Below, piece after piece: positions 8,637 through 34,239 of a DNA stretch of 64,000 nucleotides. The position numbers and the translations under genes are program-made. Origin of the DNA: Massilia atriviolacea (GTDB lineage Bacteria; Pseudomonadota; Gammaproteobacteria; Burkholderiales; Burkholderiaceae_D); contig NZ_RXLQ01000021.1 of assembly GCF_003953935.1 (NCBI RefSeq), positions 1 through 64,000 of the forward strand, written 5' to 3'. A model generated the notes under the pieces. It saw nothing but the letters and a program-made list of their open reading frames with translations, had not been told where the DNA came from and ran no database searches. Position 1 is the first letter of the stretch, and every line of letters begins with the position of its first letter.

Positions 8637-8681
8637 CTGTCCGCTCGCTGTCCATACGCGCCGTCCGGACGGCGCGGACAG
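8637..8681 (+). promoter_or_regulatory. Putative enhancer dyad CTGTCCG-N31-CGGACAG
   Basis: CTGTCCG at 8637-8643 and CGGACAG at 8675-8681 form an inverted pair separated by 31 bp. Their centres lie 88 and 50 bp upstream of the GG of the sigma54 promoter at 8727. Between them are a further CTGTCC (8648-8653) and the palindrome GTCCGGAC (8663-8670). The same dyad with the same spacing to its promoter occurs at 34175-34219. The position is right for a bacterial enhancer-binding protein, most simply the response regulator encoded at 13410-14738. Confidence 0.75.
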
Positions 8682-8726
8682 TCCTGCGCCGGCGCCGAAC
8701 CTGATACGAATCAAGGACTTAGCCTG

Positions 8727-8742
8727 TGGCACGCTTCCTGCA
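8727..8742 (+). promoter_or_regulatory. Sigma54 (-24/-12) promoter of the efflux operon
   Basis: TGGCACG-N4-CTGCA matches the sigma54 consensus TGGCACG-N4-TTGCW with one mismatch. The invariant GG (8728-8729) and GC (8740-8741) are separated by exactly 10 bp. Transcription would begin about 12 bp downstream, around 8753, shortly before the adaptor ATG at 8777. A sigma54-dependent activator is encoded five genes downstream in the same operon, which supports the call. Confidence 0.8.
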
Positions 8743-8776
8743 TTGGTGTGGCTATCTTTTGTTCAAGCAAACCAAC

Positions 8777-10045
8777 ATGATCCGAGACACTTCTTCCCAG
8801 GACGCCACCATCAGCGCACCGCCCGCGCACAAGGCCAGGCGCCGCCTGCTTGGCGCCGTGCTGGCGGCGGGCGCGCTGGGCGGCGCGGCGCTGCTGCTGT
8901 CCGCCTGGCGCGGCAGCGAACACGCGGTCAGCGCGGCGCGCCTGCGCGTGGCCGAGGTCACGCGCGGCACCCTGGTGCGCGACGCCTCCGTCAACGGCCG
9001 CGTGGTGGCCGCCGTCAGCCCCACCCTGTACGCCACCGCGCCGGCCACGGTCACGCTCAAGGTGGCCGCCGGCGACACCGTCAAGAAGGGCCAGATCCTC
9101 GCTTTGCTCGAATCGCCCGACCTGTCGGACGCGCTCAAACGCGAGCAATCGAGCTACCAGCAGCTGGAAGCGGAAGTGGCGCGCCAGCGCATCCTGGCCA
9201 AAAAGCAGAAGCTGCTGGCCCAGCGCGAAGCCGACACCGCCGAAATCGAGCGCCTCTCGGCCCAGCGCACGCTGGAGCGTTACGACAGCGTGGTCCAGGA
9301 AGGCATCATCGCCAAGATCGACTACCAGAAGGCCAAAGACGCGCTCAATTCGGCCGGCATCCGCGCGCGCCATGCCGCGCAGGCGGCCACGCTGGAAGGC
9401 GACGACGTCGGCCTGGCCCTGCAGACCAAGGTGGCCGAACTCGACCGCCAGCGCCTGTCGATGGCCAACGCCCAGCGCCGCGTGGACGAACTGTCGGTGC
9501 GCGCGCCGGTCGACGGCTTCATCGGCACGCTGTCGGTGCAGAACCGCAGCGTGGTGGCGGCCAACGCGGCGCTCATGACGCTGGTCGACCTGTCGCGCCT
9601 CGAAGTCGAACTCGAAGTCCCGGAAACCTATGTCGACGACATGGGCCTGGGCATGCGCGCCGAGATCGCGCTCGGCAACGCCACCGCCAGCGGCACGCTG
9701 TCGGCGCTCTCGCCCGAAGTGGTCAAGAACCAGGTGCTGGCGCGGGTGCGCTTCGACGGCGCCCAGCCCAAGGGACTGCGCCAGAGCCAGCGCGTCAGCG
9801 CGCGCCTGCTGATCGAAGAAAAACGCGACGTCGTCCTGCTGCCGCGCGGCCCCTTCGTCGAGAGCGAGGGCGGACGCTTCGCCTACGTGGTGCAGGGCGG
9901 CGAGGCCGTGCGCACCCCGATCGCCCTGGGCGCGACCAGCGTGTCCTCGGTCGAAATCCTGAGCGGCCTGAAAGCGGGCGACCAGGTCGTCGTCGCCGGC
10001 ACCGACAGCTTCGCCAACGCGGCCCGCGTCTCCATCCATCGATAG
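8777..10045 (+). CDS. HlyD/MacA-like periplasmic adaptor subunit
   Basis: A 422-residue membrane-fusion protein. A single N-terminal transmembrane anchor (about 24-42) is followed by a lipoyl-like half, a long coiled-coil hairpin (about 115-215), the second lipoyl half with VRAPVDGFIGTL, and a beta-barrel/membrane-proximal region ending with the typical GLKAGDQVVVAGTDSF. It should bridge an inner-membrane ABC transporter and an outer-membrane channel. No TolC-type gene is in the window. The ATG at 8777 is preferred to one 51 bp upstream because that one overlaps the sigma54 promoter. It is the first gene of the operon. Confidence 0.87.
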   Translation: MIRDTSSQDATISAPPAHKARRRLLGAVLAAGALGGAALLLSAWRGSEHAVSAARLRVAEVTRGTLVRDASVNGRVVAAVSPTLYATAPATVTLKVAAGDTVKKGQILALLESPDLSDALKREQSSYQQLEAEVARQRILAKKQKLLAQREADTAEIERLSAQRTLERYDSVVQEGIIAKIDYQKAKDALNSAGIRARHAAQAATLEGDDVGLALQTKVAELDRQRLSMANAQRRVDELSVRAPVDGFIGTLSVQNRSVVAANAALMTLVDLSRLEVELEVPETYVDDMGLGMRAEIALGNATASGTLSALSPEVVKNQVLARVRFDGAQPKGLRQSQRVSARLLIEEKRDVVLLPRGPFVESEGGRFAYVVQGGEAVRTPIALGATSVSSVEILSGLKAGDQVVVAGTDSFANAARVSIHR

Positions 10046-10067
10046 CATTCCAACGAAAGGACCATCC

Positions 10068-10790
10068 ATGCTGCGCATGACCAATCTGAGCAAGGTGTAC
10101 CGCACCCACATGATCGAAACGCACGCGCTGCGCGGCTTCGAGATCCACGTCAGGCAGGGCGAATTCGTCACCGTCACCGGCCCTTCCGGCTCGGGCAAGA
10201 CCAGCTTCCTGAACATCGCCGGCCTGCTCGAAGAATTTACCGACGGCGAGTATGTGCTCGACGGCGTCAACGTCAAGGGCATGGACGACAACGCCCGCTC
10301 GCGCCTGCGCAACGAAAAACTGGGCTTCATCTTCCAGGGCTTCAACCTGATTCCCGACCTGTCCCTGTTCGACAACGTCGACGTGCCGCTGCGCTACCGC
10401 GGCTTCAACGCCGCCGAGCGCAAGGAGCGCATCGAAGACGCCCTGTCCAAGGTCGGCCTGGCCTCGCGCATGAAGCACTATCCGGCCGAACTGTCGGGCG
10501 GCCAGCAGCAGCGCGTGGCGATCGCGCGCGCGCTGGCCGGCTCGCCCAAGCTGCTGCTGGCCGACGAACCGACCGGCAACCTGGACACGCAAATGGCGCG
10601 CGGCGTGATGGAGCTGCTCGAAGACATCAACGCCCAGGGCACCACCATCCTGATGGTCACGCACGATCCCGAGCTGGCGGTGCGCGCCCAGCGCAATGTG
10701 CACATCATCGACGGCCAGGTGTCGGACCTGGTGCGCAAGGGCCCCACCCTGGCCGGCGCCAGCGCCAGCGCATCCGGCCAGGCCGCATAA
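10068..10790 (+). CDS. ABC transporter ATP-binding protein (MacB/LolD type)
   Basis: A 240-residue ATPase with Walker A GPSGSGKT at residues 38-45, Q-loop FQGFNLIPDL, signature LSGGQQQRVAIARAL, Walker B LLLADEPTGNLD and H-loop VTHDPELA. The separate ATPase subunit with two FtsX-type permeases next to it resembles split MacAB-like or BceAB-like exporters. An AAAGGA ribosome-binding site precedes the ATG. It is 22 bp after the adaptor gene and 9 bp before the first permease. Confidence 0.93.
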   Translation: MLRMTNLSKVYRTHMIETHALRGFEIHVRQGEFVTVTGPSGSGKTSFLNIAGLLEEFTDGEYVLDGVNVKGMDDNARSRLRNEKLGFIFQGFNLIPDLSLFDNVDVPLRYRGFNAAERKERIEDALSKVGLASRMKHYPAELSGGQQQRVAIARALAGSPKLLLADEPTGNLDTQMARGVMELLEDINAQGTTILMVTHDPELAVRAQRNVHIIDGQVSDLVRKGPTLAGASASASGQAA

Positions 10791-10799
10791 GGAGCGCCC

Positions 10800-12113
10800 A
10801 TGTTCTCGTACTACTTCAAGCTGGGCGTGCGCAGCCTGCGCCGCAATCCGGCCCTGACCGCGCTGATGGTGCTGACCCTGGCCATCGGCGTGGCGGCCAG
10901 CGTGTCGACCCTGACCATCCTGCACGTCATGTCGAGCAATCCGATTCCGCACAAGAGCGAGCGCCTGTTCGTGCCGAGGATCGACAACGGCCTGCTCGAG
11001 ACCTTCAAGCCGCATGAAGACGACCGCTTCGACCCGCAGTCGACCTACCCCGACGCCATGAACTTCCTGCGCGACGGGCATGGCGAACGGCGCACCGTGC
11101 TGTATGGCGTGTCGGCCCCGCTGGAGCCGGTGCGCAAGGACTTGCCGGTCATGTCGGTCACCGGCCTGGCCCTGACGCGCGACTTCTTCGCGATGATGGA
11201 TGTGCCCTTCCTGCACGGGCAGCCGTGGAGCGACGCCGACGAACGGGCCGGCGCCGAAGTGGTGGTCTTAAGCCGCGACCTGGCCGAAAAGCTGTTCGGC
11301 GCGGACAACCCGGTCGGCAAGCGCATCCGCCTGATGGACAAGCAGTTCCAGGTGGTGGGCGTGCGCAAGCCGTGGCGGCCGGTACCCAAATTCTACAAGC
11401 TGATCGGCGGTGGCGCGTTCACCCAGGAAGACGAGATCATGATCCCGTTCGCCACCGCGATCCGGCTCGAAGCGAATCCGGAAGGCAGCATCAGCTGCCA
11501 GGGCAAGACCGAACCTGGCTGGCAGGGTTTCCTGCGCTCCGAATGCACCTGGCTGCAGGTGTTCTTCGAAACCAGAACCGCCGCCGGACGCGCCGAACTG
11601 CAGGAATACCTGGACAACTACGCCGACGCGCAGCGCAGGCTGGGGCGCCTGAAACGCAAGCAGCCGAACCAGCTGTTCGACGTGATGCAGTGGCTGGAAC
11701 ACCGCAAGGTGGTCGGCAACGACAGCCGCCTGGCGGCCTGGCTGGCGTTCGGCTTCCTGCTGCTTTGCCTGGTCAACACCGTGGGCCTGCTGCTGGCCAA
11801 ATTCTCGGTGCGCGCCTCCGAAGTCGGCATCCGGCGCGCGCTGGGCGCCTCGCGCAAGGAGATCTTCCGCCAGTTCCTGACCGAGACGGCGGTGGTCGGC
11901 CTGGCCGGCGGCCTGCTCGGCCTGTTGCTGGCCTGGGGCGCCCTGGCCCTGATCCGCCTGCAATCGGAGCAGTTGCGCATCGTCGCCCACATGGATTGGC
12001 AGATGCTGGGCGCGACCTTCCTGCTGGCGCTGGGCGCCGCCATGCTGGCCGGCCTGCTGCCGACCTGGCGCGCCTGCCAGGTCACGCCGGCCATCCAACT
12101 CAAATCGCAATAA
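10800..12113 (+). CDS. FtsX/MacB-type ABC permease 1
   Basis: A 437-residue permease with an N-terminal transmembrane helix (about 20-40), a large periplasmic MacB-like core domain (about 45-300) and three C-terminal helices (about 315-425) carrying the FtsX motif VRASEVGIRRALGASRKEIF. This mechanotransmission topology is used for exporting peptides, lipids or toxins from the periplasm rather than through the membrane pore. AAGGAG lies 6 bp before the ATG. Downstream comes a second, diverged permease, so the transporter is probably a heterodimer. Confidence 0.9.
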   Translation: MFSYYFKLGVRSLRRNPALTALMVLTLAIGVAASVSTLTILHVMSSNPIPHKSERLFVPRIDNGLLETFKPHEDDRFDPQSTYPDAMNFLRDGHGERRTVLYGVSAPLEPVRKDLPVMSVTGLALTRDFFAMMDVPFLHGQPWSDADERAGAEVVVLSRDLAEKLFGADNPVGKRIRLMDKQFQVVGVRKPWRPVPKFYKLIGGGAFTQEDEIMIPFATAIRLEANPEGSISCQGKTEPGWQGFLRSECTWLQVFFETRTAAGRAELQEYLDNYADAQRRLGRLKRKQPNQLFDVMQWLEHRKVVGNDSRLAAWLAFGFLLLCLVNTVGLLLAKFSVRASEVGIRRALGASRKEIFRQFLTETAVVGLAGGLLGLLLAWGALALIRLQSEQLRIVAHMDWQMLGATFLLALGAAMLAGLLPTWRACQVTPAIQLKSQ

Positions 12114-12130
12114 CCTTCGAAAGGCACGGC

Positions 12131-13369
12131 ATGGAAATCCGTCCCATCCTCTCCGCGCTCCTGCGCAGCAAGACCGGCGCCATCCTGGTGGCGCTGCAAG
12201 TGGCGATCAGCCTGGCGATCCTGACCAACGCGCTGCATATCGTCGGCGTGCGCCAGGCCGTGGCGGCACGCCCGACCGGCATCGCCGGCGAGAACAGCGT
12301 GTTCTATATCCGGGTACGCCACCTGGTCGAAGGCAGCCACCAGCAGCAGATCGCGCGCCAGCAGTCCGAAACGCAGGCCCTGCGCGCCATCGGCGGCGTG
12401 GCCTCGGCCGCCTTTGCCAGCCAGGCGCCGATTTCGCGCTCCGGCTGGACCACCTCCCTGGCGGCGACGCGCACGCCGGGCGCCGACACCTCGCCCGGCG
12501 CCATGTACTACTCGAGCGATTCGCTGGTCGACACCTGGGGCCTGAAGCTGGTGCAAGGGCGCGACCTGCGTCCGGACGACGTGGTCGACATCGACGGCAA
12601 GACCTCGCCCGAGGAACTGTTCCCCAAATCGGTGCTGATGACCAGGGCGCTGGCCGGCAAGCTGTGGCCCGGCGCGGCCGGGGTGCTCGGCAAGACCGTC
12701 TACTTCGGCACCAGCCCGGATGGCAACGCCGCCACCGTGGTCGGGGTCATCGACACGCTGCAGACCCAGAACGGCGAACTGGCCGCGCGCGGCGACTATG
12801 CGCTGATCGTGCCGATCCGCCAGTCATTCAGCCCGGCGATGTACACGGTGCGCGCCGAAGCCGGCCAGCTGGACCGGGTCATGAAGGAGGCCGAAGCGAC
12901 GCTGCGCGCCAGCAACCAGGGGCGCGCGATCATCACCATGCAGACGGCGGCGGCCGACCGCAAGGAACGCTACCGGGCCGACATGGCGCTGTCGTGGATG
13001 CTGATCGCGGTCAGCGTGCTGCTGCTGCTGATCACCGCCAGCGGCATCGTCGGCATGGCCAGCCTGTGGGTCACGCAGCGCCGCAAGCAGATCGGCGTGC
13101 GCCGCGCCCTTGGCGCCCGCCGCACCGACATCCTGCGCTACTTCATCACCGAGAATTTCATGATCACCAGCGTCGGGGTGCTGTGCGGGGTGGCGCTGTC
13201 GGTGGCGCTGAACCAGCTGCTGGTCAGCCGGCTGGAGATGGCGCGCCTGCCGCTGGCCTACCTGGCGGTGGGAGCCGGCGTGTTCTGGGCGCTCGGCGTG
13301 GCGGCGGTGTACGGGCCGGCCTGGCGCGCCGCCTCGATCTCGCCGGCCACCGCGACGCGCAGTGCCTGA
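12131..13369 (+). CDS. FtsX/MacB-type ABC permease 2
   Basis: A 412-residue protein beginning MEIRPILSALLRSKTGAILV, with the same layout as permease 1: one N-terminal helix, a periplasmic domain and three C-terminal helices. It has the motif RRKQIGVRRALGARRTDILRYF. It shares the fold but clearly differs in sequence from permease 1, consistent with a heterodimer. The ATG at 12131, 17 bp after the previous stop and preceded by GAAAGG, is the start; the frame is open further upstream only because of high GC. Confidence 0.88.
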   Translation: MEIRPILSALLRSKTGAILVALQVAISLAILTNALHIVGVRQAVAARPTGIAGENSVFYIRVRHLVEGSHQQQIARQQSETQALRAIGGVASAAFASQAPISRSGWTTSLAATRTPGADTSPGAMYYSSDSLVDTWGLKLVQGRDLRPDDVVDIDGKTSPEELFPKSVLMTRALAGKLWPGAAGVLGKTVYFGTSPDGNAATVVGVIDTLQTQNGELAARGDYALIVPIRQSFSPAMYTVRAEAGQLDRVMKEAEATLRASNQGRAIITMQTAAADRKERYRADMALSWMLIAVSVLLLLITASGIVGMASLWVTQRRKQIGVRRALGARRTDILRYFITENFMITSVGVLCGVALSVALNQLLVSRLEMARLPLAYLAVGAGVFWALGVAAVYGPAWRAASISPATATRSA

Positions 13370-13409
13370 GCCGCTTCCCGGCCCGGGTTCCGATGGTATG
13401 CTAGCGCCC

Positions 13410-14738
13410 ATGCCTACTGTACTGATCATCGACGACAACGCCGCCGTCGCCATCGCACTCGATGTCCTGTTTTCGCTGCACGACATCGGCGCGCTGCGCG
13501 CCACCTCGCCCGAAGAAGGCCTGGCCATCCTGGAACGCACGAGCGTGGACCTGGTCATCCAGGACATGAATTTTTCGGCCGACACCACCTCGGGCGAGGA
13601 AGGCACGGCCCTGTTCCGCGAGATCCGCCGGCGCCACCCGGACCTGCCGGTGATCCTGCTGACCGCCTGGACCCACCTGGATGCGGCGGTCGAGCTGGTC
13701 AAGTCGGGCGCGGCCGATTACCTGTCCAAACCCTGGAACGACAACCGCCTGATCGCGACCGTGACCAACCTGGTCGAACTGGGCCAGGCCAACCGCGCGC
13801 TGCGCCAGCGCGTGCAGCAGGAGCGGCGCGTGCGGCGCGACCTGGAACAGGGCTTCGACCTGCGCGGCATGGTGTGGCAGGACGCCGCCACCGAACGCAT
13901 CCTGCACCTGGCCTGCCAGGTGGCGCGGGCCGACGTGCCGGTGCTGATCAGTGGCCCCAACGGCACCGGCAAGGAGCGCATCGCCGAGATCATCCAGGCC
14001 AATTCGCTGGTGGCCGACGGCCCCTTCGTGGTGCTCAACTGCGGCGCGCTGCCGGCCGAACTGATCGAGGCCGAACTGTTCGGCGCCGAAGCGGGCGCCT
14101 ACACCGGCGCCTCGCGCGCGCGCGAAGGCAAGTTCGAAGCGGCCGACGGCGGCACCCTGTTCCTGGACGAAATCGGCAACCTGCCGCTGGCCGGCCAGAT
14201 GAAACTGCTGCGCGTGCTGGAGACCGGACGCTTCGAGCGCCTCGGCTCGAACCGCGAGCGCCAGGTCAAGGTGCGCGTGATCAGCGCCACCAACGCCGAC
14301 CTGGGCGCGATGATCCGCGCCGGCACCTTTCGCGAAGACCTGTTCTACCGCCTCAACGTGATCGAACTGCGCCTGCCGGCGCTGGCGGCGCGTCCGGCCG
14401 ACATTTTGCCGCTGGCGGCCAGTTTTCTGGCGCGCGGCAAAAGCCTGCACCACTGCGCCCAGGCCGCGCTGCTGGCGCACGCCTGGCCAGGCAATGTGCG
14501 CGAACTCAAGAACGTGATGGCGCGCGCCAGCCTGCTGGCCGCCGGCGACGTCATCAAGGCGGGCGACCTGGGGCTGCCGGTCACGCTGGCCGCCAGCGTC
14601 GAAGTGGAGCCGGACCGCGACGCCATCGTGCAGGCCATGGCGCGCGCGGGCGGCGTGGTGGCGCAGGCCGCGGCCGACCTGGGCCTGTCGCGCCAGGCGC
14701 TGTACCGGCGCATGGAGCGGCTCGGGATCGCGCGCTAG
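13410..14738 (+). CDS. Sigma54-dependent NtrC-family response regulator
   Basis: A 442-residue activator. The receiver domain (1-120) has acidic residues D8/D9 and phospho-acceptor D52. The AAA+ domain (about 150-375) has a Walker A variant GPNGTGKE, the sigma54-contacting loop GAYTGA at 229-234 (usual form GAFTGA) and Walker [12 protein letters not shown] Fis-type helix-turn-helix ([20 protein letters not shown]) ends the protein. It is encoded in the operon behind a sigma54 promoter, so it probably activates its own operon. The kinase gene follows after 3 bp. The ATG at 13410 gives the canonical receiver start; one 12 bp upstream is possible. Confidence 0.93.
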
Positions 14739-14741
14739 CCG

Positions 14742-16058
14742 ATGCGCCTGTCCCTCGTCACGCGCTGGTCGGCACTGGTGGGCACCCTGCTCACGCTCGG
14801 CGTCCTCATCGCGCTCGGGCTGGACCGCCTGCTGCCGGGGCGCGTGCTGACGGTGCTGGCCGTCTCGCTGGCCTGCGTGGTGCCGATCGCGGTAATCACC
14901 ATGCGCGCCCAGATCCGCCCCATCCTGTCCCTGTTCCGCGCGCTCGAAGGCACCGTCACCAGCTACAAGGATGGCGACTTTTCCTTCAGCCTGCACTGGC
15001 CGCAGAACGACGAACTGGCCGACCTGGTGGCGGCCCACAACGCGCTCGGGAACGTGCTGCGCGAACAGCGCCTGGCGCTGGTTCAGCGCGAACTGCTGCT
15101 CGATACCATGGTCCAGAACACGCCGGTGGCGATGCTGCTGGTGGGCGAGCTGGCGGGCAGCCCGGGGGCGATCGTCTACGCCAACCTGTCGGCGCGCCAG
15201 ATGCTGGGCGAAGGCCGCAAGCTCGAAGGCCACCGCCTGTCCGAGATCCTGGGCACGGCCTCGCCGGCGCTGGTGGACGCGCTGGCGCGCGGCGGCGACG
15301 GCCTGTTTTCGGCCGGCGACGGCGAGGACGAAGAGGTCTACCACCTGGCGCGCCGCAGCTTCAGCCTGAACGGCCGCAAGCACGAACTGCTGCTGCTGCG
15401 CCAATTGACCCACGAACTGCGGCGCCAGGAAGTGCAGACCTGGAAAAAGGTCATCCGCGTGATCAGCCACGAACTGAATAACTCGCTCGCGCCCCTGACG
15501 TCGCTGGCGCATTCCGGCGCGGAGCTGGTGCGGCGCGGCCAGACCGAGCGCCTGCCGCAGATCCTGGAAACCATCGAAGAGCGCACGCGCCACCTGGAGA
15601 GCTTCATCCTCGGCTACGCGCGCTTCGCCAAGCTGCCTGCGCCGCGCATCGAAGCATGTCCGTGGCCCGGCTTTGTCGGCCAGCTGGCCTCGCAGGTGGC
15701 CGTGACGGTGGTCGGCGCGCTGCCGCCCGAAGCGGCCCGCTTCGACCCGGCCCAGATGGAACAGGCCTTGCTCAACCTGCTCAAGAACGCCCACGAATCT
15801 GGTTCGCCGGCCGCCGACGTGGCGCTGCAGGTGCGCCAGGCGCACGGCACCCTGCGCATCGAAGTGATGGACCGCGGCCAGGGCATGAACGACGCGGTGC
15901 TGACCAATGCGCTGGTACCCTTCTACTCCACCAAGCGCAGCGGCACCGGCCTGGGACTGGCGCTGGCGCGCGAAATCGCCGAGGCGCACGGCGGGCGCAT
16001 CACGCTCGGCAACCGCGAGGGCGGCGGCCTGACGGTGACCCTGATCCTGCCGGCCTAA
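14742..16058 (+). CDS. NtrB-like sensor histidine kinase, intramembrane-sensing type
   Basis: A 438-residue kinase. Two transmembrane helices (about 10-27 and 35-53) are joined by a loop of only about seven residues, so there is no periplasmic sensor domain. A HAMP-like linker and a PAS-like segment (about 110-220) follow. The H-box is SHELNNSLAPL with the phosphorylated His243. The ATPase motifs are NLLKNAHE (N), DRGQGMND (G1) and GTGLGLALA (G2). Kinases of this form next to FtsX-type ABC transporters often sense through the transporter. It should phosphorylate the regulator encoded 3 bp upstream. Confidence 0.9.
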   Translation: MRLSLVTRWSALVGTLLTLGVLIALGLDRLLPGRVLTVLAVSLACVVPIAVITMRAQIRPILSLFRALEGTVTSYKDGDFSFSLHWPQNDELADLVAAHNALGNVLREQRLALVQRELLLDTMVQNTPVAMLLVGELAGSPGAIVYANLSARQMLGEGRKLEGHRLSEILGTASPALVDALARGGDGLFSAGDGEDEEVYHLARRSFSLNGRKHELLLLRQLTHELRRQEVQTWKKVIRVISHELNNSLAPLTSLAHSGAELVRRGQTERLPQILETIEERTRHLESFILGYARFAKLPAPRIEACPWPGFVGQLASQVAVTVVGALPPEAARFDPAQMEQALLNLLKNAHESGSPAADVALQVRQAHGTLRIEVMDRGQGMNDAVLTNALVPFYSTKRSGTGLGLALAREIAEAHGGRITLGNREGGGLTVTLILPA

Positions 16059-16105
16059 GTAAGTGCGGGTGGTAAGATCGCTGTTCCACTTTTTCTCCGC
16101 CAGCG

Positions 16106-19604: not shown

Positions 19605-19626
19605 GCTGGCCCGAGCAATCCGACAA

Positions 19627-19656
19627 GGCCACGCCGGCGACGGCGTGGCCTTTTTT
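19627..19656 (+). terminator. Rho-independent terminator of the TonB receptor gene
   Basis: A 10-bp perfect stem GGCCACGCCG/CGGCGTGGCC with a 4-nt loop is followed directly by six T residues. It lies 22 bp after the receptor stop codon. Confidence 0.92.
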
Positions 19657-19759
19657 GATGGAACAGGCAGTGTCATCCCTGCCATCGGCTTGCGATGACG
19701 GACGTTCCAACGAAGAAGTCGAAGCAAGGTTCGCCGCCCGCCGCAGTTTTCGGAGGCAG

Positions 19760-19924: not shown

Positions 19925-19947
19925 CCCGGGCGCGACTGGGTTAGCGC

Positions 19948-20826: not shown

Positions 20827-20894
20827 GCGGACAGGACTCCAGGAAAAAAGGGTTGGGCAGGTTGAGCGGCATCATAACCGACGCCGGCCGGGAC

Positions 20895-26227: not shown

Positions 26228-26234
26228 GCGATGG

Positions 26235-27239
26235 CTAATCCTTGTCGGCGCGGATCTCGGCACGCAGGGCGAGCAGGATGTCGGCAATCGCCACGCCGTC
26301 GGCTTCGGCCTCGAAGTTGCGCAGCACGCGATGCGCCAGCACCGGCAGCAGCATGGCGCCGATGTCGTCGCGCGTCACCGCCAGGCGATTGTGCATCAGC
26401 GCGCGCGCCTTGGCCGCCAGCACCAGCGCCTGGCCGGCGCGCGGTCCGGCGCCCCAGCCGACATGTTTGCCGACGGCGGCGACGTGCGTCTCCTGCGGGC
26501 GGGTCGCGCGCACCAGGCGCGTGGCGTAGCGCAGCAGGTGTTCGCCGATGTCGATATCGCGCACCAGCGTTTGCAGGCGCAGCAGGCTGTCCACATCCAT
26601 CGCCTGCGGCGCATCGGGCAGGCCCGCGTGGGTGGTGCGCGAGACCATCGTCATCTCTTCCTCTTCGGTCGGGTAGCCGACGTCGATGCGCAGCAAGAAG
26701 CGGTCGAGCTGCGCTTCCGGCAGCGGGTAGGTGCCGGCCTGCTCGATCGGGTTCTGGGTGGCCAGCACGAAGAACGGCTTTTGCAGGGTGTGGGTGACGC
26801 CGGCAAAGGTCACCGCGCGCTCCTGCATCGCTTCGAGCAGCGCCGACTGGGTCTTGGGCGGCGCGCGGTTGATTTCGTCGGCCAGCAGCACCTGCGTGAA
26901 CACGGGACCGGGCTGGAAGCGGAAGATGCGCTGGCGCGTGGCCTGGTTTTCTTCGAGGATTTCGGTGCCGATGATATCCGACGGCATCAGGTCGGGCGTG
27001 AACTGCACGCGCTGGAATTTCAGGTCGGTGGCCTGCGCCAGCGACTTGACCAGCAAGGTCTTGCCCAGTCCCGGCACGCCCTCGACCAGCGCGTGGCCGC
27101 CGGCCAGCAGGCAGATGATCAGCGACTCGATCACATTGTCCTGGCCGACGATCACGCTCGACATGCTCGCCTTGAGCGCGCCGATCTTTGCCGTCAGGTC
27201 GGCGATGTCTTTTTCTTCCCAGGCTACTGGCACTGTCAT
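26235..27239 (-). CDS. MoxR-family AAA+ ATPase
   Basis: A 334-residue ATPase with Walker A GVPGLGKT at 54-61, Walker B LLADEINRAPPKTQSALLEA, sensor 1 ATQNPIEQAGTYPLPEAQLD and a C-terminal lid domain. MoxR proteins act as chaperones that load metals or assemble complexes, together with DUF58/VWA partners. The start at 27239 overlaps the DUF4159 stop by 4 bp. Its place inside an operon with TldD/PmbA proteases suggests it assembles or activates that machinery. Confidence 0.93.
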   Translation of the reverse strand: MTVPVAWEEKDIADLTAKIGALKASMSSVIVGQDNVIESLIICLLAGGHALVEGVPGLGKTLLVKSLAQATDLKFQRVQFTPDLMPSDIIGTEILEENQATRQRIFRFQPGPVFTQVLLADEINRAPPKTQSALLEAMQERAVTFAGVTHTLQKPFFVLATQNPIEQAGTYPLPEAQLDRFLLRIDVGYPTEEEEMTMVSRTTHAGLPDAPQAMDVDSLLRLQTLVRDIDIGEHLLRYATRLVRATRPQETHVAAVGKHVGWGAGPRAGQALVLAAKARALMHNRLAVTRDDIGAMLLPVLAHRVLRNFEAEADGVAIADILLALRAEIRADKD

Positions 27240-27856
27240 GCTCCCAAAGCGTACTGAATGATATTGACCGCGAAGCGGGTGTTGTCGACCACCAGCCAGC
27301 GCTTGTTGCGGAAGTCGTAGTCCCACTCGCAGCCGTAGTCCTTGTTCGAATACAGCACCCGCACGCGCCCGTTGATTTCGATGGCCTTCAGGTAGTCGTG
27401 CACCAGGTCGTCGCCCCAGCCATTGAGCTCGTTGCCGGTGTTGGGCGGGCCGTCGAACTGGAAGAAGCTCGAATACACCGGGTGGTTGTTGGGGATCTTC
27501 CTGAGCGCCCTGGGGCCGAAGATGCGCGCCATTTCGGCCTCGAAGGACTTGGCGAACAGGCCGTCGATGTCGTGGTTGCAGTCGTCGACGAACACAAAGC
27601 CGCCGCCGCGCACGTAGCGCTCGAAGTTCTTGCGCTCGGCCGGCGTGAACTGCACCAGCTTGTGCCCGGCCAGGTAGCAGAAGGGCGACTCCAGCATCTT
27701 TGCGTCGGCCAGCGCAATCACGCGTTCCACCGGATCGACGCGCAGGGTGGTGTACTCCACCAGCGAATTGAGTACGTTGCTGGGCATGCGGATATCCACG
27801 TCCCAGTCGCCCGACTCGTACATCAGGCGCGTGAAGTAGAAGTCGTAGCTGCGCAT
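27236..27856 (-). CDS. DUF4159 domain protein
   Basis: A 206-residue protein with no signal peptide in the chosen frame. Its central GGGFVFVDDCNHDIDGLFAK and the C-terminal region with WDYDFRNKRWLVVDNTRFAV, where a glutamine-amidotransferase-like flavodoxin fold is expected, match DUF4159. The domain is usually encoded in MoxR/DUF58 clusters and its function is unknown. It starts 14 bp after the PmbA-like gene and overlaps MoxR by 4 bp. Confidence 0.85.
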   Translation of the reverse strand: MRSYDFYFTRLMYESGDWDVDIRMPSNVLNSLVEYTTLRVDPVERVIALADAKMLESPFCYLAGHKLVQFTPAERKNFERYVRGGGFVFVDDCNHDIDGLFAKSFEAEMARIFGPRALRKIPNNHPVYSSFFQFDGPPNTGNELNGWGDDLVHDYLKAIEINGRVRVLYSNKDYGCEWDYDFRNKRWLVVDNTRFAVNIIQYALGA

Positions 27857-27870
27857 GGCGCGGTCCCGCC

Positions 27871-29208
27871 CTAGACCGCGTCCGACAGCGACGTGAAGTT
27901 GAAGTCGCGGATTTTCATCGGCGGAATGACCATCTGGAAGTTGGCGCCGTCGCCGCCCAGGATCTGCGGCTTGCCCAGTTCATCGAGGTTGTTGAGCATC
28001 GACACCGGGCTTTCGTTGAAGCGGAAGTTCTTCACCGGATGCTTGATCTTGCCGTTTTCGACGTAGAAGGTGCCGTCGCGCGTAAGGCCCGTGAGCAGCA
28101 GCGATTGCGGATCGACGTCGCGGATGTACCAGGTGCGGGTAACGACGATGCCCTTCCTGGTCGACGCGATCAGTTCGTCGAGCGATCTGGAGCCGCCCGA
28201 CATGATCATGTTGCCGTGACGGCCGCGCGCCTTCATCTTCTGCTTGTTGGCCCAGAACAGCGAGTAATCGAGCGAGACGATCTTGCCGTTTCTGATGATG
28301 TCGGTGCGTTCGCGCGGCAGCATCGATTCGGTGTCCCATGGGCGCACCGGCACGTCCTTGTCCCACGGGTCGGCCCACACATTGACCTGTTCGTCGAAGA
28401 GCTTTTCGCCGAGGCGGTTGCCGCCGCCCTTTTTGGAGAGGAAGCTGCGGCCTTCGTCGGCGCGGCGCGCATCGAAGGAGCCGAACATGCGCCCGACCAG
28501 GTCCGAGGTGGCGGCCGGCTCCAGGATCACCGTGTAGCGGCCCGGCTCCAGCGCCTTGGCGTCGACCGAACGCAGCGCCTTTTCGATGGCCACGCTGGAC
28601 GCTTCGCGCGCGTCGAAACGGCGCACGTCGTTGGCCGAGCGGGTCACCCAGCCGGAGCCGCGCCCGTCTTCGGTGCGCGCGGTGCAGGTGAAGCTGACGT
28701 TGGTGAATTCGTGGTGGCCGAACACGCCGTTGGAGTTGGCGATGGTCTCGAAGCCCGTGTTATCGACAAAGAAGCCGGCCGTCACCAGCTTGTTCTTGCG
28801 CCCCGCGAGGATGCTGTGCGAGGCTACGTCGGCGCGGAACTCCGGGTCGATGGCGGCGGTCTCGCGCGCAAAGGCGTTGGAGGGCTTGTATTCCTGCTTG
28901 CCGATGGCTGCCATGAATTCGGGATTTTCGGGCGCCAGGCGGGCCAGGTCTTCGGCGCGGCGCACGGCTTTTTCGAGCGACTTGTCGTCGAACTCATTGA
29001 TCGAGGCGGTGCCCTGGCGCTTGCCGAAGGCGACGCTCACGGTCAGCTGCATGTTCTCGTTCAGGCCCGCGGTCGACACGCTGTTCTGCGCGTAGCGGAT
29101 ATTGCCGCTACGGGTGCCGTTGATCGCCACGCGGCATTCGTCGGCCCTGGAAAATCCGAGCACGCGGTCGCAGATGCGTTTTGCTTCTTCCTGGTTCAAC
29201 TGTTTCAT
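27871..29208 (-). CDS. PmbA/TldE-like protein, copy 1
   Basis: A 445-residue protein of the TldD/PmbA family. It has the family strands and loops (AFGKRQGTASINEFDDKSLE, KNFRFNESPVSMLNN) but no HExxxH zinc motif, as expected of the PmbA (TldE) partner. E. coli TldD and TldE form a heterodimer that trims unfolded peptides and matures microcin B17. It has no signal peptide, unlike its TldD partner 14 bp upstream. It is closely similar by eye to the second copy at 30979-32316 and the same length. The ATG at 29208 is used; the frame is open further upstream inside tldD. Confidence 0.9.
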   Translation of the reverse strand: MKQLNQEEAKRICDRVLGFSRADECRVAINGTRSGNIRYAQNSVSTAGLNENMQLTVSVAFGKRQGTASINEFDDKSLEKAVRRAEDLARLAPENPEFMAAIGKQEYKPSNAFARETAAIDPEFRADVASHSILAGRKNKLVTAGFFVDNTGFETIANSNGVFGHHEFTNVSFTCTARTEDGRGSGWVTRSANDVRRFDAREASSVAIEKALRSVDAKALEPGRYTVILEPAATSDLVGRMFGSFDARRADEGRSFLSKKGGGNRLGEKLFDEQVNVWADPWDKDVPVRPWDTESMLPRERTDIIRNGKIVSLDYSLFWANKQKMKARGRHGNMIMSGGSRSLDELIASTRKGIVVTRTWYIRDVDPQSLLLTGLTRDGTFYVENGKIKHPVKNFRFNESPVSMLNNLDELGKPQILGGDGANFQMVIPPMKIRDFNFTSLSDAV

Positions 29209-29222
29209 GCTGCGAATTCTCC

Positions 29223-30860
29223 TTAGCCGATCTTGCGGGCGGTGTTGATGACGTTGATGCCGTTGAAACGCGTGGTAGCAGATCCGTGCGACACCGCGCT
29301 GACCTGGCTGGGCTGCCCTTTGCCGTCGAAGAAGGAGCCGCCCATGCGCCAGTCGCGCGCGTCGCAGATGGCGCTGCACGCGTTCCAGAATTCCTGGGTG
29401 TTGGACTGGTAGGCCACGTCTTCCAGGGGGCCGGCGATCTTGCCGTTCCTGATCTCGAAGTACAGCTGGCCGCCGAACTGGAAGTTGTAGCGCTGCTGGT
29501 CGATCGAGTAAGAGCCGCGCCCGAGGATGTAGATGCCCTTCTTGACGTCCTTGACCATCTCGTCGGGGGTCAGGGCTTCCTTGCCGGCGGCGAGCGAAAT
29601 GTTCGGCATGCGCTGGAATTGCACGCTGTTCCAGCTGTCGGCGTACGAGCAGCCGTGCGACTCCTTTTCGCCGATGAGGTGGGCCTGGTCGCGCGTGGCC
29701 TGGTAGTTGACCAGGATGCCGTCCTTGATGATGTCCCAGCGCTTGGCGGGCACGCCTTCATCGTCGTAGGCGACGGCGCCGAGCGAACCCGGTTCGTTCT
29801 TGTCGGCGATGAAGTTGACCCTGTCGGCGCCGAACTTGAATTTCTTGGTCTTCCACTTATCGAGGGTGGCGAAGCTGGTGCCGGCGTAATTGGCTTCGTA
29901 GCCGAGTACCCGGTCCAGCTCCGTCGGGTGGCCGACCGACTCGTGGATGGTCAGGAACAGGTGTTCGGGCGAGAGCACCAGGTCGTACTTGCCCGGTTCG
30001 ACCGTCTTGGCGGAGAGTTTTTCGCGCGCCTGGCGGCCGGCCGCGCGCGCGTCCTCCACGATATCGTAGGACTTGGTGTAGAGCGTGGCGACGCCGCCGG
30101 CGGCCTTGATCTTGTCGGCCGGGCGCGCGTCGAAGTATTCGTAACCCATGCCGGCCGGCGCGGCCAGGCTGTCGCGCGTGCGGAACTTGTTGCTGGCCTT
30201 GTCGACGGCGGTGGCGGTCAGCGGCGCCCACAGGCGGTGGATGTCCTGGTCGATGTAGGAACCGTCGGTGGAGGCGAAGTACTTTTGCTGGTTGACCTGG
30301 AACAGGGTCGAGGTCATGAAGCTGGCGCCGGCGTCCAGGCCCGCCTTGTTGGCGGCGATCAGCATCTCGGCCTTGTCCTTGATCGGGACCGTGCGCCAGT
30401 CGCGGGTGAACGGCGTGGCCCACGCCACTTCGCCGACGCCCTTGACCGGCGCCATTTGCAGCGGCTCGCCTTGCAGCTTGCTGTTGGCGCGGGCAATCGC
30501 CACGGCCTGGCGCGCGGCGGCGGCGATGCTGTCCGGGGACATGTCGTTGGTGGAGGCGAAGCCGTAGGCGCCGTTGGCGATCACGCGCACCCCCACGCCG
30601 GACGACTCGGTGTTGACGATGTTCTCCACGCTCAGGTCGCGCGTGGTGATGAACTGGTTCAGGTAGCGGCCGATGCGCACGTCGCAGTAGCTGGCGCCGG
30701 CCCTGGTGGCGGCGTTCATCGCGGCGTCGGCCAGGGACTTCTTGAAGGCGATGGCGACCGGGTTCATTAATTCTTCGGCCGCGATGGCGTTACCGAAGAC
30801 GGGCACCAGGATGGCGCCGGCGGCGCCGCTGCCGATTTTGAGGAAGGTACGTCGTTCCAC
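29223..30860 (-). CDS. TldD-like zinc metalloprotease with Tat signal, copy 1
   Basis: A 545-residue protein starting with GTG, AGGAG 7 bp upstream. The N-terminus MERRTFLKIGSGAAGAILVP has the twin-arginine motif RRTFLK, a hydrophobic stretch and an AEE cleavage region near residue 28. The TldD motif HESVGH lies at 306-311, and the C-terminal WNACSAIC offers the cysteine ligand region. TldD family members cut peptides in unfolded proteins, normally in the cytoplasm; this one looks exported folded with zinc through Tat. It is a tandem paralogue of 32331-33968. Confidence 0.9.
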   Translation of the reverse strand: MERRTFLKIGSGAAGAILVPVFGNAIAAEELMNPVAIAFKKSLADAAMNAATRAGASYCDVRIGRYLNQFITTRDLSVENIVNTESSGVGVRVIANGAYGFASTNDMSPDSIAAAARQAVAIARANSKLQGEPLQMAPVKGVGEVAWATPFTRDWRTVPIKDKAEMLIAANKAGLDAGASFMTSTLFQVNQQKYFASTDGSYIDQDIHRLWAPLTATAVDKASNKFRTRDSLAAPAGMGYEYFDARPADKIKAAGGVATLYTKSYDIVEDARAAGRQAREKLSAKTVEPGKYDLVLSPEHLFLTIHESVGHPTELDRVLGYEANYAGTSFATLDKWKTKKFKFGADRVNFIADKNEPGSLGAVAYDDEGVPAKRWDIIKDGILVNYQATRDQAHLIGEKESHGCSYADSWNSVQFQRMPNISLAAGKEALTPDEMVKDVKKGIYILGRGSYSIDQQRYNFQFGGQLYFEIRNGKIAGPLEDVAYQSNTQEFWNACSAICDARDWRMGGSFFDGKGQPSQVSAVSHGSATTRFNGINVINTARKIG

Positions 30861-30881
30861 TATTTGCTCCTGCTTGCGCTC

Positions 30882-30969
30882 CGTCGTTCCCGCGAAGGCG
30901 GGAACCCAATTTGCACGCGGCCCGGTGGACGCGGCACGTACTTGGGTTCCCGCCTTCGCGGGAACGACG
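30882..30969. repeat. REP/BIME-like element between the two tldD/pmbA pairs
   Basis: Two 28-bp arms (30882-30909 and 30942-30969) are perfect inverted repeats of each other, separated by 32 bp. Each arm is itself a hairpin (TTCCCGC/GCGGGAA). It shares the GGGAACCCAA-type core with the copy at 3761-3846. It fills most of the 118-bp gap between the second pair and the first. Such structures can protect upstream mRNA from 3' decay and so uncouple expression of the pairs. Confidence 0.9.
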
Positions 30970-30978
30970 TGGTAATGT

Positions 30979-32316
30979 TTACACTGCGTCCGACAAGGAC
31001 GTAAAGTTGAAGTCCCTGACCTTCATCGGCGGAATCAGCATCGAATACGGCACCTCGTCGCCCGCGATCACCTGCGGCTTGCCGATCGCCTCGATATTGT
31101 TCAGCATGGTCACCGGGCTTTCGTTAAAACGGAAGTTCTTGATCGGATGCTTGATCTTGCCGTTCTCGATGTAGAACGTGCCGTCGCGCGTCAGGCCGGT
31201 CAGCAGTACCGACTGCGGGTCCACTTCGCGGATATACCAGGTGCGCGTGACCAGCACGCCGCGCTTGGTGCCTGCGATCAGCTCCGCCGTGGTTTTGCCG
31301 GTCCCGCCCATGATCATATTGCCTGGCGCGCCAATGGCGCGCACGCCTTTCTTGTTGGCCCAGAACAGCGAATAATCGAGCGCCGATACCTTGCCGTCCT
31401 TGATCAGGTTCATGCGCTCGCGCGCCAGCATGGTGCCCGCGTCCCACGGCATCACCGGCACATCCTTGTCCCACGGGTCGGACCAGATATTGACCTGGGC
31501 GTCGAACAGCTTGTCGCCCAGGCGCGTGCCGCCGCCCTTCTTCGACAGGAAGCTGCGGCCCTCGTCGGCCTGGCGCGCGTCGAAGCCGCCCAGCATGAAG
31601 CCGATCAGGTCGGAAGTGGCGGCCGGCTCCAGGATCACCGTGTAGCGGCCCGGTTCGAGCGCCTTGGCGTCGACCGAGCGCAGGGCCTTTTCGATGGCCA
31701 CGTCGGACGCTTCGCGCGCATCGAAACGCGCCACGTCGGTGGCCGAACGCTTGACCCAGCCCGAGCCGCGTCCGTCTTCGGTGCGCACGGTGCAGGTGAA
31801 GTCGACGTTGGTCTCTTCCTGGTGCCCGAACACGCCGTTCGAATTGGCGATGGTCTGGAAGCTGTGGCTGTCGGTGAAGAAGCCGGCGCATACCAGCTTG
31901 TTCTTGCGGCTCGCCTCGATGCTGTAGGCCGCCGTCTGCGCGCGAAACTCCGGATCGACGGCGGCGGTGGCGCGGCTGAAGGTCTCCGAGGCCTTGAACG
32001 CCTGCTTCGACACGGCCGGCATGAACTCCGGGTTTTCCGGCGCCAGGCGCGCCAGGTCCTCGGCGCGGCGCACGACTTTTTCGAGCGACTTGTCGTCGAA
32101 TTCGTTGATGGTGGCGGTGCCCTGGCGCTTGCCGAAGGCCACCTGCACCACCAGGTCGGCGTTGTCCACCAGGCCGGCGGTGGAGACGTTATTGCGCGCG
32201 TAGCGGATGTTCCCGGTGCGTCCGCCGGAAACGCGCACCGTGCATTCGTCGGCTTTTGTCAGCGCCATCACGCGGTCGGCGATACGCTTGCTTTCTTCTT
32301 GAGTCAGAATCTTCAT
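30979..32316 (-). CDS. PmbA/TldE-like protein, copy 2
   Basis: A 445-residue protein, parallel to the copy at 27871-29208 along its whole length. It shares DARQADEGRSFLSKKGGGTR-type sequence and the identical C-terminus RDFNFTSLSDAV. It lacks the zinc motif and a signal peptide. It is 14 bp downstream of its TldD partner, the same spacing as in copy 1, so the two pairs come from duplication of a unit. The start at 32316 is preceded by AGGGA. Confidence 0.9.
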   Translation of the reverse strand: MKILTQEESKRIADRVMALTKADECTVRVSGGRTGNIRYARNNVSTAGLVDNADLVVQVAFGKRQGTATINEFDDKSLEKVVRRAEDLARLAPENPEFMPAVSKQAFKASETFSRATAAVDPEFRAQTAAYSIEASRKNKLVCAGFFTDSHSFQTIANSNGVFGHQEETNVDFTCTVRTEDGRGSGWVKRSATDVARFDAREASDVAIEKALRSVDAKALEPGRYTVILEPAATSDLIGFMLGGFDARQADEGRSFLSKKGGGTRLGDKLFDAQVNIWSDPWDKDVPVMPWDAGTMLARERMNLIKDGKVSALDYSLFWANKKGVRAIGAPGNMIMGGTGKTTAELIAGTKRGVLVTRTWYIREVDPQSVLLTGLTRDGTFYIENGKIKHPIKNFRFNESPVTMLNNIEAIGKPQVIAGDEVPYSMLIPPMKVRDFNFTSLSDAV

Positions 32317-32330
32317 GTGCGGTCCCTGGC

Positions 32331-33968
32331 TTAGCCGATCTTGCGTGCGGTGTTGATGACGTTGATGCCATTGAAGCGCGCGGTACTCGACCCGTGCGAC
32401 ACGGTGCTGACCTGGCTCGGCTGGCCCTTGCCGTCGAAGAAGGAGCCGCCCATGCGCCAATCGCGCTCGTCGCAGATGGCGCTGCAGGCGTTCCAGAATT
32501 CCTGGGTGTTCGACTGGTAGGCCACGTCTTCGAGCGGCGCGCCGATCTTGCCGTTGTTGATCTCGTAGAACAGCTGGCCGCCGAACTGGAAGTTGTAGCG
32601 CTGCTGGTCGATCGAGAACGAACCCGCGCCGACGATGTAGATGCCCTTCTTGACGTCCTTGACCATCTGGTCCGGGGTCAGCCTGGCCTTGCCCGCTTCC
32701 AGCGAGATGTTGGGCATGCGCTGGAACTGCACGCTGCTCCAGCTGTCCGCGTACGAACAGCCGTGCGACTCCTTCTCGCCGATGATGTGGGCCTGGTCGC
32801 GCGTGGCCTGGTAGTTGACCAGGATGCCGTCCTTGATGATGTCCCAGCGCTTGCCCGGCACCCCTTCATCGTCGTAGCCGACCGCGCCCAGCGAACCTGG
32901 CGCGGTCTTGTCGGCCACGATGTTCACGCGTTCGGAGCCGTACTTGAATTTTTTGGTTTCCCACTTGTCCAGCGTGGCGAAGCTGGTGCCGGCGTAATTG
33001 GCTTCGTAGCCCAGCACGCGATCGAGTTCGGTCGGATGGCCCACCGATTCGTGGATGGTCAGGTACAGGTGCTCCGGCGAGAGCACCAGGTCGTATTTGC
33101 CCGGCGCGACCGACTTGGCGGTCAGCTTTTCCTTGGCCTGGCGCCCGCAGGCGCGCGCGTCTTCGATCAGGTCGTAGGAATTCTTGTACAGGGTGCAGAC
33201 GCCGCCGGCGGCCTTGATCTTGTCCTCGGAACGCGCGTCCAGGTATTCGTAGCCCATGCCGACCGGCGTGGACAAGCCCTGGCGCGAGCGGAACTTGTTG
33301 GTGGCCTTGTCGACGGCGGTGGCGAACACCGGCATCCACATGCGGTGCACGTCCTGGTCGATGTAGGAACCGTCGGTGGAAGCGAAGTATTTTTGCTGGT
33401 TCACCTGGAACATCAGCGACTGCATGAAGCTCGCGCCGCCGTCCATGCCGGCCTTGTTGGCGGCGATCAGCAGCTCGGCTTTTTCCTTGATGGGAACCGT
33501 GCGCCAGTCCTTCCTGATCGGGGTGGTCCAGGCCACTTCGCCCACGCCCTTGACGGGCGCCAGGCGCACCGGTTCGGATTGCAGCCTGGCGTTGGCCTTG
33601 GCGATGGCGACCGCCTGGCGCGCGGCGCCGGCCACCGCGTCGGGCGACATGTCGGAGGTGGCGGCAAAGCCGTAGGCGCCGTTGCACAGCACCCGCACGC
33701 CGACGCCTGCGGATTCGGTATTGGTCACGCTTTCGACGTTCAGGTCGCGCGTGGTGATGAACTGGTTCAGGTAGCGGCCGATGCGCACGTCGCAGTAGCT
33801 GGCGCCGGCGCCGGTGGCGGCATTGAGGGCCACGTCGGCCAGGGTCTTCTTGAACTTTGCTGCGAGGGGATTGAGTAATTCTTCAGCGGCGATGGCGTTG
33901 CCGAAGACCGGCACCAGCATCGTGCCCAGTGCGAGCCCGCTGATATTGAGAAAAGCACGTCGTTCCAT
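32331..33968 (-). CDS. TldD-like zinc metalloprotease with Tat signal, copy 2 (first gene of operon)
   Basis: A 545-residue protein. MERRAFLNISGLALGTMLVP gives a twin-arginine signal (RRAFLN, slightly weaker than copy 1). HESVGH is at 306-311, at exactly the same residues as copy 1. AGGAGA lies 6 bp before the ATG at 33968; an in-frame ATG 15 bp upstream is less well placed. It is the first gene after the sigma54 promoter at 34113-34129. The role is inferred to be peptide cleavage in the periplasm with its PmbA partner. Confidence 0.9.
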   Translation of the reverse strand: MERRAFLNISGLALGTMLVPVFGNAIAAEELLNPLAAKFKKTLADVALNAATGAGASYCDVRIGRYLNQFITTRDLNVESVTNTESAGVGVRVLCNGAYGFAATSDMSPDAVAGAARQAVAIAKANARLQSEPVRLAPVKGVGEVAWTTPIRKDWRTVPIKEKAELLIAANKAGMDGGASFMQSLMFQVNQQKYFASTDGSYIDQDVHRMWMPVFATAVDKATNKFRSRQGLSTPVGMGYEYLDARSEDKIKAAGGVCTLYKNSYDLIEDARACGRQAKEKLTAKSVAPGKYDLVLSPEHLYLTIHESVGHPTELDRVLGYEANYAGTSFATLDKWETKKFKYGSERVNIVADKTAPGSLGAVGYDDEGVPGKRWDIIKDGILVNYQATRDQAHIIGEKESHGCSYADSWSSVQFQRMPNISLEAGKARLTPDQMVKDVKKGIYIVGAGSFSIDQQRYNFQFGGQLFYEINNGKIGAPLEDVAYQSNTQEFWNACSAICDERDWRMGGSFFDGKGQPSQVSTVSHGSSTARFNGINVINTARKIG

Positions 33969-34112
33969 AGTATCTCCTGACAATCACCACCAAGGTAAAC
34001 GTCCCGCTTGACCGTGCGAGCGCTCTTTATTTTTCTACTCATCGGACCATGCCGATCGCTGGCCTGGACCAAAAATCAACAAGAACCTTACCAGCAAAAT
34101 GGCGAAAAGAAT

Positions 34113-34129
34113 ACGCAAAACTTGTGCCA
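34113..34129 (-). promoter_or_regulatory. Sigma54 (-24/-12) promoter of the TldD/PmbA-MoxR operon
   Basis: On the minus strand TGGCACAAGTTTTGCGT matches the sigma54 consensus TGGCACG-N4-TTGC with one mismatch. GG (34128-34127) and GC (34116-34115) are 10 bp apart. Transcription would begin near 34103, giving a leader of about 135 nt before the tldD ATG at 33968. No good sigma70 promoter was seen for this gene. Confidence 0.85.
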
Positions 34130-34160
34130 CTTGCTAAGTGCTTGATTCGCGATTGCGCGA

Positions 34161-34239
34161 GTGTCCGGCGGACGCTGTCCGCAGTGTCCGCAGCACTGTC
34201 CGCCCCCTGTAACGGACAGTATGTACAGGAGCCTGTCCC
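34161..34239 (-). promoter_or_regulatory. Cluster of CTGTCCG enhancer-like sites, dyad CTGTCCG-N31-CGGACAG
   Basis: Read on the minus strand, CTGTCCG (34219-34213) and CGGACAG (34181-34175) are 31 bp apart, with centres 88 and 50 bp upstream of the promoter GG. This is identical to the arrangement at 8637-8681. Further half-sites occur at 34161-34173, 34184-34190, 34196-34202 and 34233-34239, so this region is richer in sites. It occupies the middle of the 410-bp gap between tldD and the divergent methyltransferase gene; the rest of that gap shows nothing else I can identify. Confidence 0.8.

Follow-up and report, generated by a model that had tools for sequence, protein, structure and literature searches.

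Two operons of Massilia atriviolacea share a phased CGGACA operator and a sigma54 promoter: a probable small regulon of an NtrC-like regulator

Introduction

Sigma54 regulons of the NtrC type are a kind of system already known, and the nearest precedent that we found for the one analysed here is provided by the PrsR regulons. According to the passages of two papers that deal with it, the PrsK-PrsR PEP-CTERM regulon was found from a motif together with a phylogenetic profile, and its activator motif lies upstream of the sigma54 motif (PMC1569441; pepA in PMC9850573). In a passage of a 2025 survey, FtsX-like ABC permeases are predicted to be controlled by sigma54 (PMC12316311), and a passage on Stenotrophomonas maltophilia describes a TldD/MoxR operon that is uncharacterised and in which some genes were lower in biofilm (PMC7688217). 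The present work concerns a stretch of 64,000 nucleotides from Massilia atriviolacea (assembly GCF_003953935.1, contig NZ_RXLQ01000021.1, positions 1 to 64,000; hereafter the window). In it, an operon for an ABC exporter and a two-component system (operon 1) and an operon for TldD, PmbA/TldE and MoxR-type proteins (operon 2) each have a sigma54 promoter that is preceded by a row of CGGACA half-sites. Very probably, the two promoters constitute a small sigma54 regulon under the control of the NtrC-like regulator that is encoded at 13410-14738 in operon 1, and this regulon is new.

In its anatomy the locus resembles the NtrBC-glnA type: a Receiver-AAA-Fis regulator adjoins its kinase, upstream sites and an IHF-like site accompany a -24/-12 promoter, and autoregulation is probable. 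The putative activator sites common to both targets lie within the NtrC-type range of about 50-150 bp. The locus departs from that type in the phased CGGACA row and in its targets, an exporter and a TldD/MoxR operon, and the regulator scores far below the cut-off of the curated NtrC model (322.3 vs 558.6 bits). The order of activator motif and sigma54 motif is shared with the PrsK-PrsR regulon. Unlike PrsR, however, the regulator falls below the PrsR cut-off and carries another C-terminal helix, only two targets are seen, and no PEP-CTERM gene was recognised among them; the two proteins of the genome that exceed the TIGR02915 cut-off lie elsewhere than the regulator locus. The main text of the 2025 survey leaves TldD, PmbA, MoxR and Massilia unmentioned, and its passage on the permeases names no regulator or operator (PMC12316311). 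The S. maltophilia operon is like operon 2 in that two TldD proteins, a MoxR-like ATPase, and membrane and hypothetical proteins are encoded together, whereas the passage on it describes no regulator (PMC7688217). A literature search that covered few subscription journals found no description of this regulator, of its operator or of an exporter/TldD pairing.

Results

Two promoters share an operator array

The dyad CTGTCCG-N31-CGGACAG, which a first-pass annotation of the window had reported at two loci, is indeed present at 8637-8681 and 34175-34219, and a scan of the whole genome (7,355,158 bases in 80 contigs) finds no further copy. The geometry described there is also borne out: at both operons, a GG-N10-GC (-24/-12) promoter follows the dyad, and 88 and 50 bp separate the heptamer centres from the first G of its GG. 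The promoters are found at the positions proposed (8727 and 34129), but the GG itself is one base off in each case. A chance origin had been judged unlikely, and the controls agree, as 100 dinucleotide shuffles of the window give an expected count of 0 and the reversed pattern has no match in the whole genome. The same orientation of the two copies, offered as additional evidence, carries no information, since CTGTCCG-N31-CGGACAG is palindromic. The elements of the two promoters are as follows.

8637..8681, plus strand: operon-1 enhancer array, with CTGTCCG at 8637, CTGTCC at 8648, the palindrome GTCCGGAC at 8663 and CGGACAG at 8675
8709..8721, plus strand: IHF-consensus-like site AATCAAGGACTTA between the array and the -24 box
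8727..8741, plus strand: sigma54 promoter of operon 1, TGGCACGCTTCCTGC, GG at 8728-8729
34161..34219, minus strand: operon-2 enhancer array, with CTGTCCG at 34219-34213, CGGACAG at 34202-34196, CGGACAC at 34190-34184, CGGACAG at 34181-34175 and CGGACAC at 34167-34161
34135..34147, minus strand: IHF-consensus-like site AATCAAGCACTTA
34115..34129, minus strand: sigma54 promoter of operon 2, TGGCACAAGTTTTGC, GG at 34128-34127
34084-34096, minus strand: conserved extended -10-like element TGCTGGTAAGGTT, just downstream of the inferred sigma54 start

Three features had escaped the first-pass annotation, namely the extra half-sites, a second common block and the extended -10-like element in the operon-2 leader. 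The operon-1 array consists of three exact half-sites and the palindrome; its outer two sites make the N31 dyad, and the CTGTCC and GTCCGGAC lie inside it. In operon 2, the dyad is made of the first and fourth half-sites, with two CGGACA sites within it and one downstream. Relative to the GG, the array reaches from about -90 to -50, and in operon 2 from -90 to -38. The order of elements is the same in both promoters: the half-site row, a match to the IHF consensus, and then TGGCAC-N5-(T/C)TGC. The second common block, AATCAAG-N-ACTTAGC-N2-GTGGCAC-N5-T-N-GC, has 0 mismatches at operon 2 and 1 at operon 1, and it remains unique to the two promoters in the genome even when up to 3 mismatches are allowed. 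At both promoters it contains a perfect match to WATCAANNNNTTR, which we take to be the IHF consensus.

Motif scans for further targets in the same genome found none above chance. The scan for GGACA-N25-55-sigma54 gave 5 matches, and so did its reversed control. Since two of the 5 forward matches are the promoters described here, there is no excess of targets beyond these two.

The conserved unit is a phased row of half-sites

For the comparison, 245 genomes of the host's family were used, 88 of which encode an orthologue of the regulator (70-100% identity). Operon-1 upstream sequences were taken from 84 genomes; G203, G184, G044 and G069 are regulator-positive and lack one. A strong sigma54 site within 330 bp is present in 80 of the 84, one of which (G218) was scored on a probably spurious site with a better one further up. 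At least one exact half-site accompanies the site in 80/80 promoters, two or more in 77/80, and three to five in 67/80. Altogether, these 80 promoters hold 284 half-sites, while 17.8 are expected from dinucleotide shuffles; in 38 operon-2 promoters there are 147 vs 10.4 expected. The half-site consensus is CGGACA(C/G) at both operons, with three to five sites being typical of operon 1 and four to six of operon 2. The GG-N10-GC elements are likewise conserved in relatives, and the IHF consensus is found in 62/80 operon-1 promoters (0.08 expected) and in 15/38 operon-2 promoters (under 0.1 expected).

The sites are regularly spaced. At operon 1, GGACA peaks at -52, -61 and -70 and TGTCC at -90. 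At this operon, 121 of 204 consecutive pairs are separated by gaps of 8-13 bp, and the corresponding figure for operon 2 is 80 of 114; the gaps peak at 9 bp in the former and at 11-12 bp in the latter. The N31 spacing was considered as the operator and rejected: the 38-bp distance between the starts of TGTCC and GGACA occurs in only 12/80 operon-1 and 13/39 operon-2 promoters, so the phased row, not N31, is the conserved unit. The exact dyad is found in 15 of the 245 genomes, our own included. It stands at one or both promoters in seven genomes of the same genus (G111, G125, G138, G148, G170, G181, G192), with one additional copy elsewhere in G148, and seven more genomes have matches to which no location is assigned here (G017, G081, G087, G133, G204, G215, G222). 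The dyad is therefore one pair within the row, exact only in a Massilia clade. Measured against the refuting condition of the first-pass annotation, that the dyad lacks conserved spacing in close relatives, its spacing holds only within that clade.

Similar rows are seen beyond the family. The exporter promoters of Luteimonas, Dyella and a gammaproteobacterial metagenome-assembled genome (MAG), whose adaptors are about 45% identical, have four half-sites and a sigma54 promoter, and that of Rhodanobacter has three TGTCC within 50 bp and a sigma54 promoter. Among these exporters from outside the family, only that of Luteimonas has a regulator orthologue (70%) inside the compared stretch. A Burkholderiaceae MAG from outside the 245-genome set has arrays at both operons (four half-sites and a sigma54 match at operon 2).

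The array follows the regulator

The proposed activator is encoded within operon 1, the gene content of which, like that of operon 2, agrees with the first-pass annotation:

8777..10045, plus strand: HlyD/MacA-like periplasmic adaptor (ATG at 8777; first residue aligned in most relatives)
10068..10790, plus strand: ABC ATPase
10800..12113, plus strand: MacB/FtsX-type permease 1
12113..13369, plus strand: MacB/FtsX-type permease 2 (coordinates of the open reading frame (ORF), putative start)
13410..14738, plus strand: NtrC-family response regulator and sigma54 enhancer-binding protein, the proposed activator, with Receiver, sigma54 AAA+ and Fis helix-turn-helix domains
14742..16058, plus strand: histidine kinase with two N-terminal transmembrane segments predicted from hydropathy alone
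16106..16879, plus strand: spermidine-synthase-like protein, 47 bp past the kinase and, judging from this spacing, probably the end of operon 1

Among named relatives, those nearest to the adaptor come from Massilia species (95%). In Dyella and Rhodanobacter (L300, L301, 12000-21000), respectively four and three permease pairs follow one adaptor and ATPase behind a promoter of the same kind, the last pair in this comparison being cut by the end of the stretch.

A pattern of two half-sites and a sigma54 site was matched, in a hand tally, by 61 of the 88 regulator-positive genomes (one of them, G113, by a stray only) and by 6 of the 157 without the regulator. Five of these six are strays, and the TldD copies of the sixth, a genome of 48% completeness, are broken. 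By position, all but 9 of the family-wide matches fall on the two operons (the reversed control has 4 strays); matches were assigned to operon 1 by their position upstream of the regulator gene, and the gene content was checked for G203 and G108. The array is also present at the regulator's own operon in genomes that lack operon 2, such as Janthinobacterium G005 and G159.

TldD-like matches at 1e-40 occur in 85 of the 245 genomes, and the tandem TldD pair was taken from 57; G231, which is 48% complete and has its TldD copies broken, was excluded from this set. Where the regulator is adjacent or contig-broken, 37 of 48 genomes have three or more half-sites within a span of 105 bp at operon 2. 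Of these, G222, G098 and G193, which carry arrays but have the regulator on a different contig, were classed as contig-broken, and G138, whose upstream was cut, was scored positive from the family-wide pattern search. G108 does not belong to the 48, having only 91 bp upstream and its operon-2 array on another contig beside the methyltransferase-like gene. Such an array is present in 0 of 8 genomes in which the regulator is absent (G027, G079) or distant (six of genus g32, that is, five with the regulator on another contig and G176, where it is 461 kb away). For these 56 informative genomes Fisher's test gives p 5e-5, with kinship ignored. In G079, which has lost the regulator, the operon-2 region is still alignable by eye to its relatives, and its TldD promoter is degenerate: bases of the -24/-12 element are changed and two half-sites are left, about 150-230 bp before TldD.

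Outside the family, a close TldD (1e-150) was found in only 3 of 369 class-level genomes besides our own, and none of the three has a sigma54 match or an array within 700 bp. TldD was found in two of six named genomes, Luteimonas and the Burkholderiaceae MAG described above, and the TldD of Luteimonas has neither an array nor a sigma54 match; no array stands at the TldD promoters of Luteimonas and the three other class-level genomes.

The activator named in the first-pass annotation, the regulator at 13410-14738, is therefore well supported by comparison as the probable single activator of both promoters, since the array stands at its own operon, the pattern follows the regulator across the family and the operon-2 counts are 37/48 vs 0/8.

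Several observations weigh against this interpretation. The strict two-GGACA pattern fails in 27 of the 88 regulator-positive genomes, most of which show other half-site arrangements at operon 1. The 8 negative genomes stem from about three lineages, so the effective sample is small. In 11 of the 48 linked genomes there is no operon-2 array within 500 bp, only scattered sites up to 1.2-1.3 kb, and five of these (G056, G120, G126, G214, G244) keep the sigma54 promoter, for which reason another activator or none may serve the operon there; in several others the -24 box is degenerate by eye. Membership of operon 2 in the regulon thus appears changeable. The half-sites are mostly direct repeats, which are unusual for a Fis-type dimer. 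Five genomes, those whose adaptors have diverged most, are outliers. In G063 and G104, five phased half-sites precede the adaptor, and no sigma54 match is nearby; G107 has no more than two half-sites, located about 560-580 bp up. In the remaining two, G218 and G198, five half-sites accompany a sigma54 match that lies about 360 bp up, beyond a possible small ORF.

Alternatives to a common activator

The alternative that survives best, though we consider it unlikely, is that operon 1 alone is truly sigma54-dependent and that operon 2 is transcribed mainly from the extended -10-like element, with the array modulating or repressing it. TGnTAnnnT is present in 31 of 41 operon-2 leaders vs 1.55 in shuffled sequences and in 0 of 70 at operon 1. 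Of the 16 genomes in which no sigma54 site was recognised, 6 have a similar element (G003, G018, G027, G079, G182, G223); the count was made without a shuffle control, and by our estimate chance could account for about 2 of 16. Because of these two observations, we suggest that operon 2 has basal sigma70-type expression; however, the operon-2 array and the -24/-12 elements co-occur in most linked genomes, which speaks for sigma54 control on top of it.

It is quite improbable that both promoters are driven by another enhancer-binding protein, such as either of the two PrsR proteins of the PEP-CTERM system, and that the neighbouring regulator has some other role. The genome does encode about 14 proteins with a sigma54-activator domain, by our own reading of the domain search, two of them above the PrsR cut-off, and PrsR regulons are similar in anatomy, the activator motif lying about 63 nt upstream of the sigma54 motif in the relevant passage (PMC1569441). 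A PrsR-type regulon should, however, have many targets, whereas the CGGACA motif has two in the genome, and the regulator itself is far below the PrsR cut-off of TIGR02915 (325.6 vs 502.6 bits). Its C-terminal helix region is near-invariant among the orthologues compared, differs from those of both PrsR proteins and is not seen in 11 other enhancer-binding proteins of the genome (11/13 readable). The array, moreover, tracks the operon of this regulator, including a case in Janthinobacterium that lacks operon 2, and, in Xanthomonadales, the exporter operon.

Least probable of all is that one promoter was recently duplicated or converted and that operon 2 is not functionally co-regulated. Both promoters do contain a near-identical block of about 30 bp, but bases outside the elements mostly differ between the two, and operon-2 arrays keep the half-site at a different spacing (11-12 vs 9 bp) in 37/48 linked genomes of several genera.

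Gene content of operon 2 and its surroundings

The genes of operon 2 and the gene divergent from it are listed below.

32331..33968, minus strand: TldD copy 1, first gene of operon 2, Tat-type N-terminus MERRAFLNISG...
30979..32460, minus strand: PmbA/TldE copy 1, likely start inside the ORF, no signal peptide seen
29223..30860, minus strand: TldD copy 2, Tat-type N-terminus MERRTFLKIGSG
27871..29379, minus strand: PmbA/TldE copy 2, likely start inside the ORF
27236..27856, minus strand: DUF4159 protein
26235..27326, minus strand: MoxR-type AAA ATPase
25340..26287, minus strand: DUF58 protein
24360..26072, minus strand: ORF with a BatA-like C-terminal part (Pfam match exactly at the cut-off; true start well inside)
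20895..24727, minus strand: two overlapping ORFs at the operon-2 tail, with predicted membrane segments and no Pfam match, conserved behind BatA in relatives
34379-35176, plus strand: methyltransferase-like protein, divergent from operon 2, with a weak Pfam match and an apparent signal peptide

A secreted methyltransferase would be odd. The operon had been proposed to encode a periplasmic proteolysis machine that is joined with the exporter. This is consistent with both TldD copies, which begin with MERRxFL, an apolar stretch and an AxA-like site (judged by eye), but not with the PmbA copies, on which no twin-arginine or other export signal was seen and whose starts look cytoplasmic. Since a twin-arginine-type signal thus appears to be confined to TldD, joint export might occur, and it may be speculated that PmbA is carried out with TldD if heterodimers form.

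The TonB receptor and the TldD operon (17124-34378) sit between the spermidine-synthase-like and methyltransferase-like genes. They behave as a removable module, as they are cleanly absent in G159 between the same flanking genes; in a Janthinobacterium genome they are also absent, with the flanks kept.

Discussion

A mechanism that would fit the arrangement of genes and sites can be outlined. The membrane histidine kinase at 14742-16058 would sense a signal, for which our guess is peptide or envelope stress, and phosphorylate the regulator. The regulator would then bind cooperatively to the CGGACA row, in which the half-sites are mostly about one helical turn apart, and its AAA+ ring would be assembled on the array. 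An IHF-type bend beside the -24 box could bring this ring into contact with the sigma54 polymerase, and the complex would be opened. The first target would be the regulator's own exporter operon (adaptor, ABC ATPase, two permeases, regulator and kinase), resulting in a positive feedback that looks ancestral. The second target would be the neighbouring TldD/PmbA-MoxR-DUF58 operon, which may have joined in a branch of the Massilia/Duganella group in which the two operons adjoin, over a sigma70-type basal promoter.

A tentative evolutionary reading, to which we give somewhat less than even weight, is that an ancestrally self-activating exporter two-component system captured the neighbouring peptidase operon. 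The array and the sigma54 promoter would be usual at that operon beside the regulator and would be lost with it. Export and peptide cleavage would then form one response, which, if true, would mean either peptide maturation and export or a defence against peptides.

An operator (phased CGGACA) and two targets can now be assigned, with the confidence stated above, to an enhancer-binding protein of Massilia, Duganella, Janthinobacterium and Luteimonas. The TldD/PmbA-MoxR-DUF58 operon, which is poorly understood, would be tied to a defined signalling pathway, and this may give a handle on its role. The genomes in which the regulator is adjacent, distant or missing would be a natural experiment on how an operon enters and leaves a regulon.

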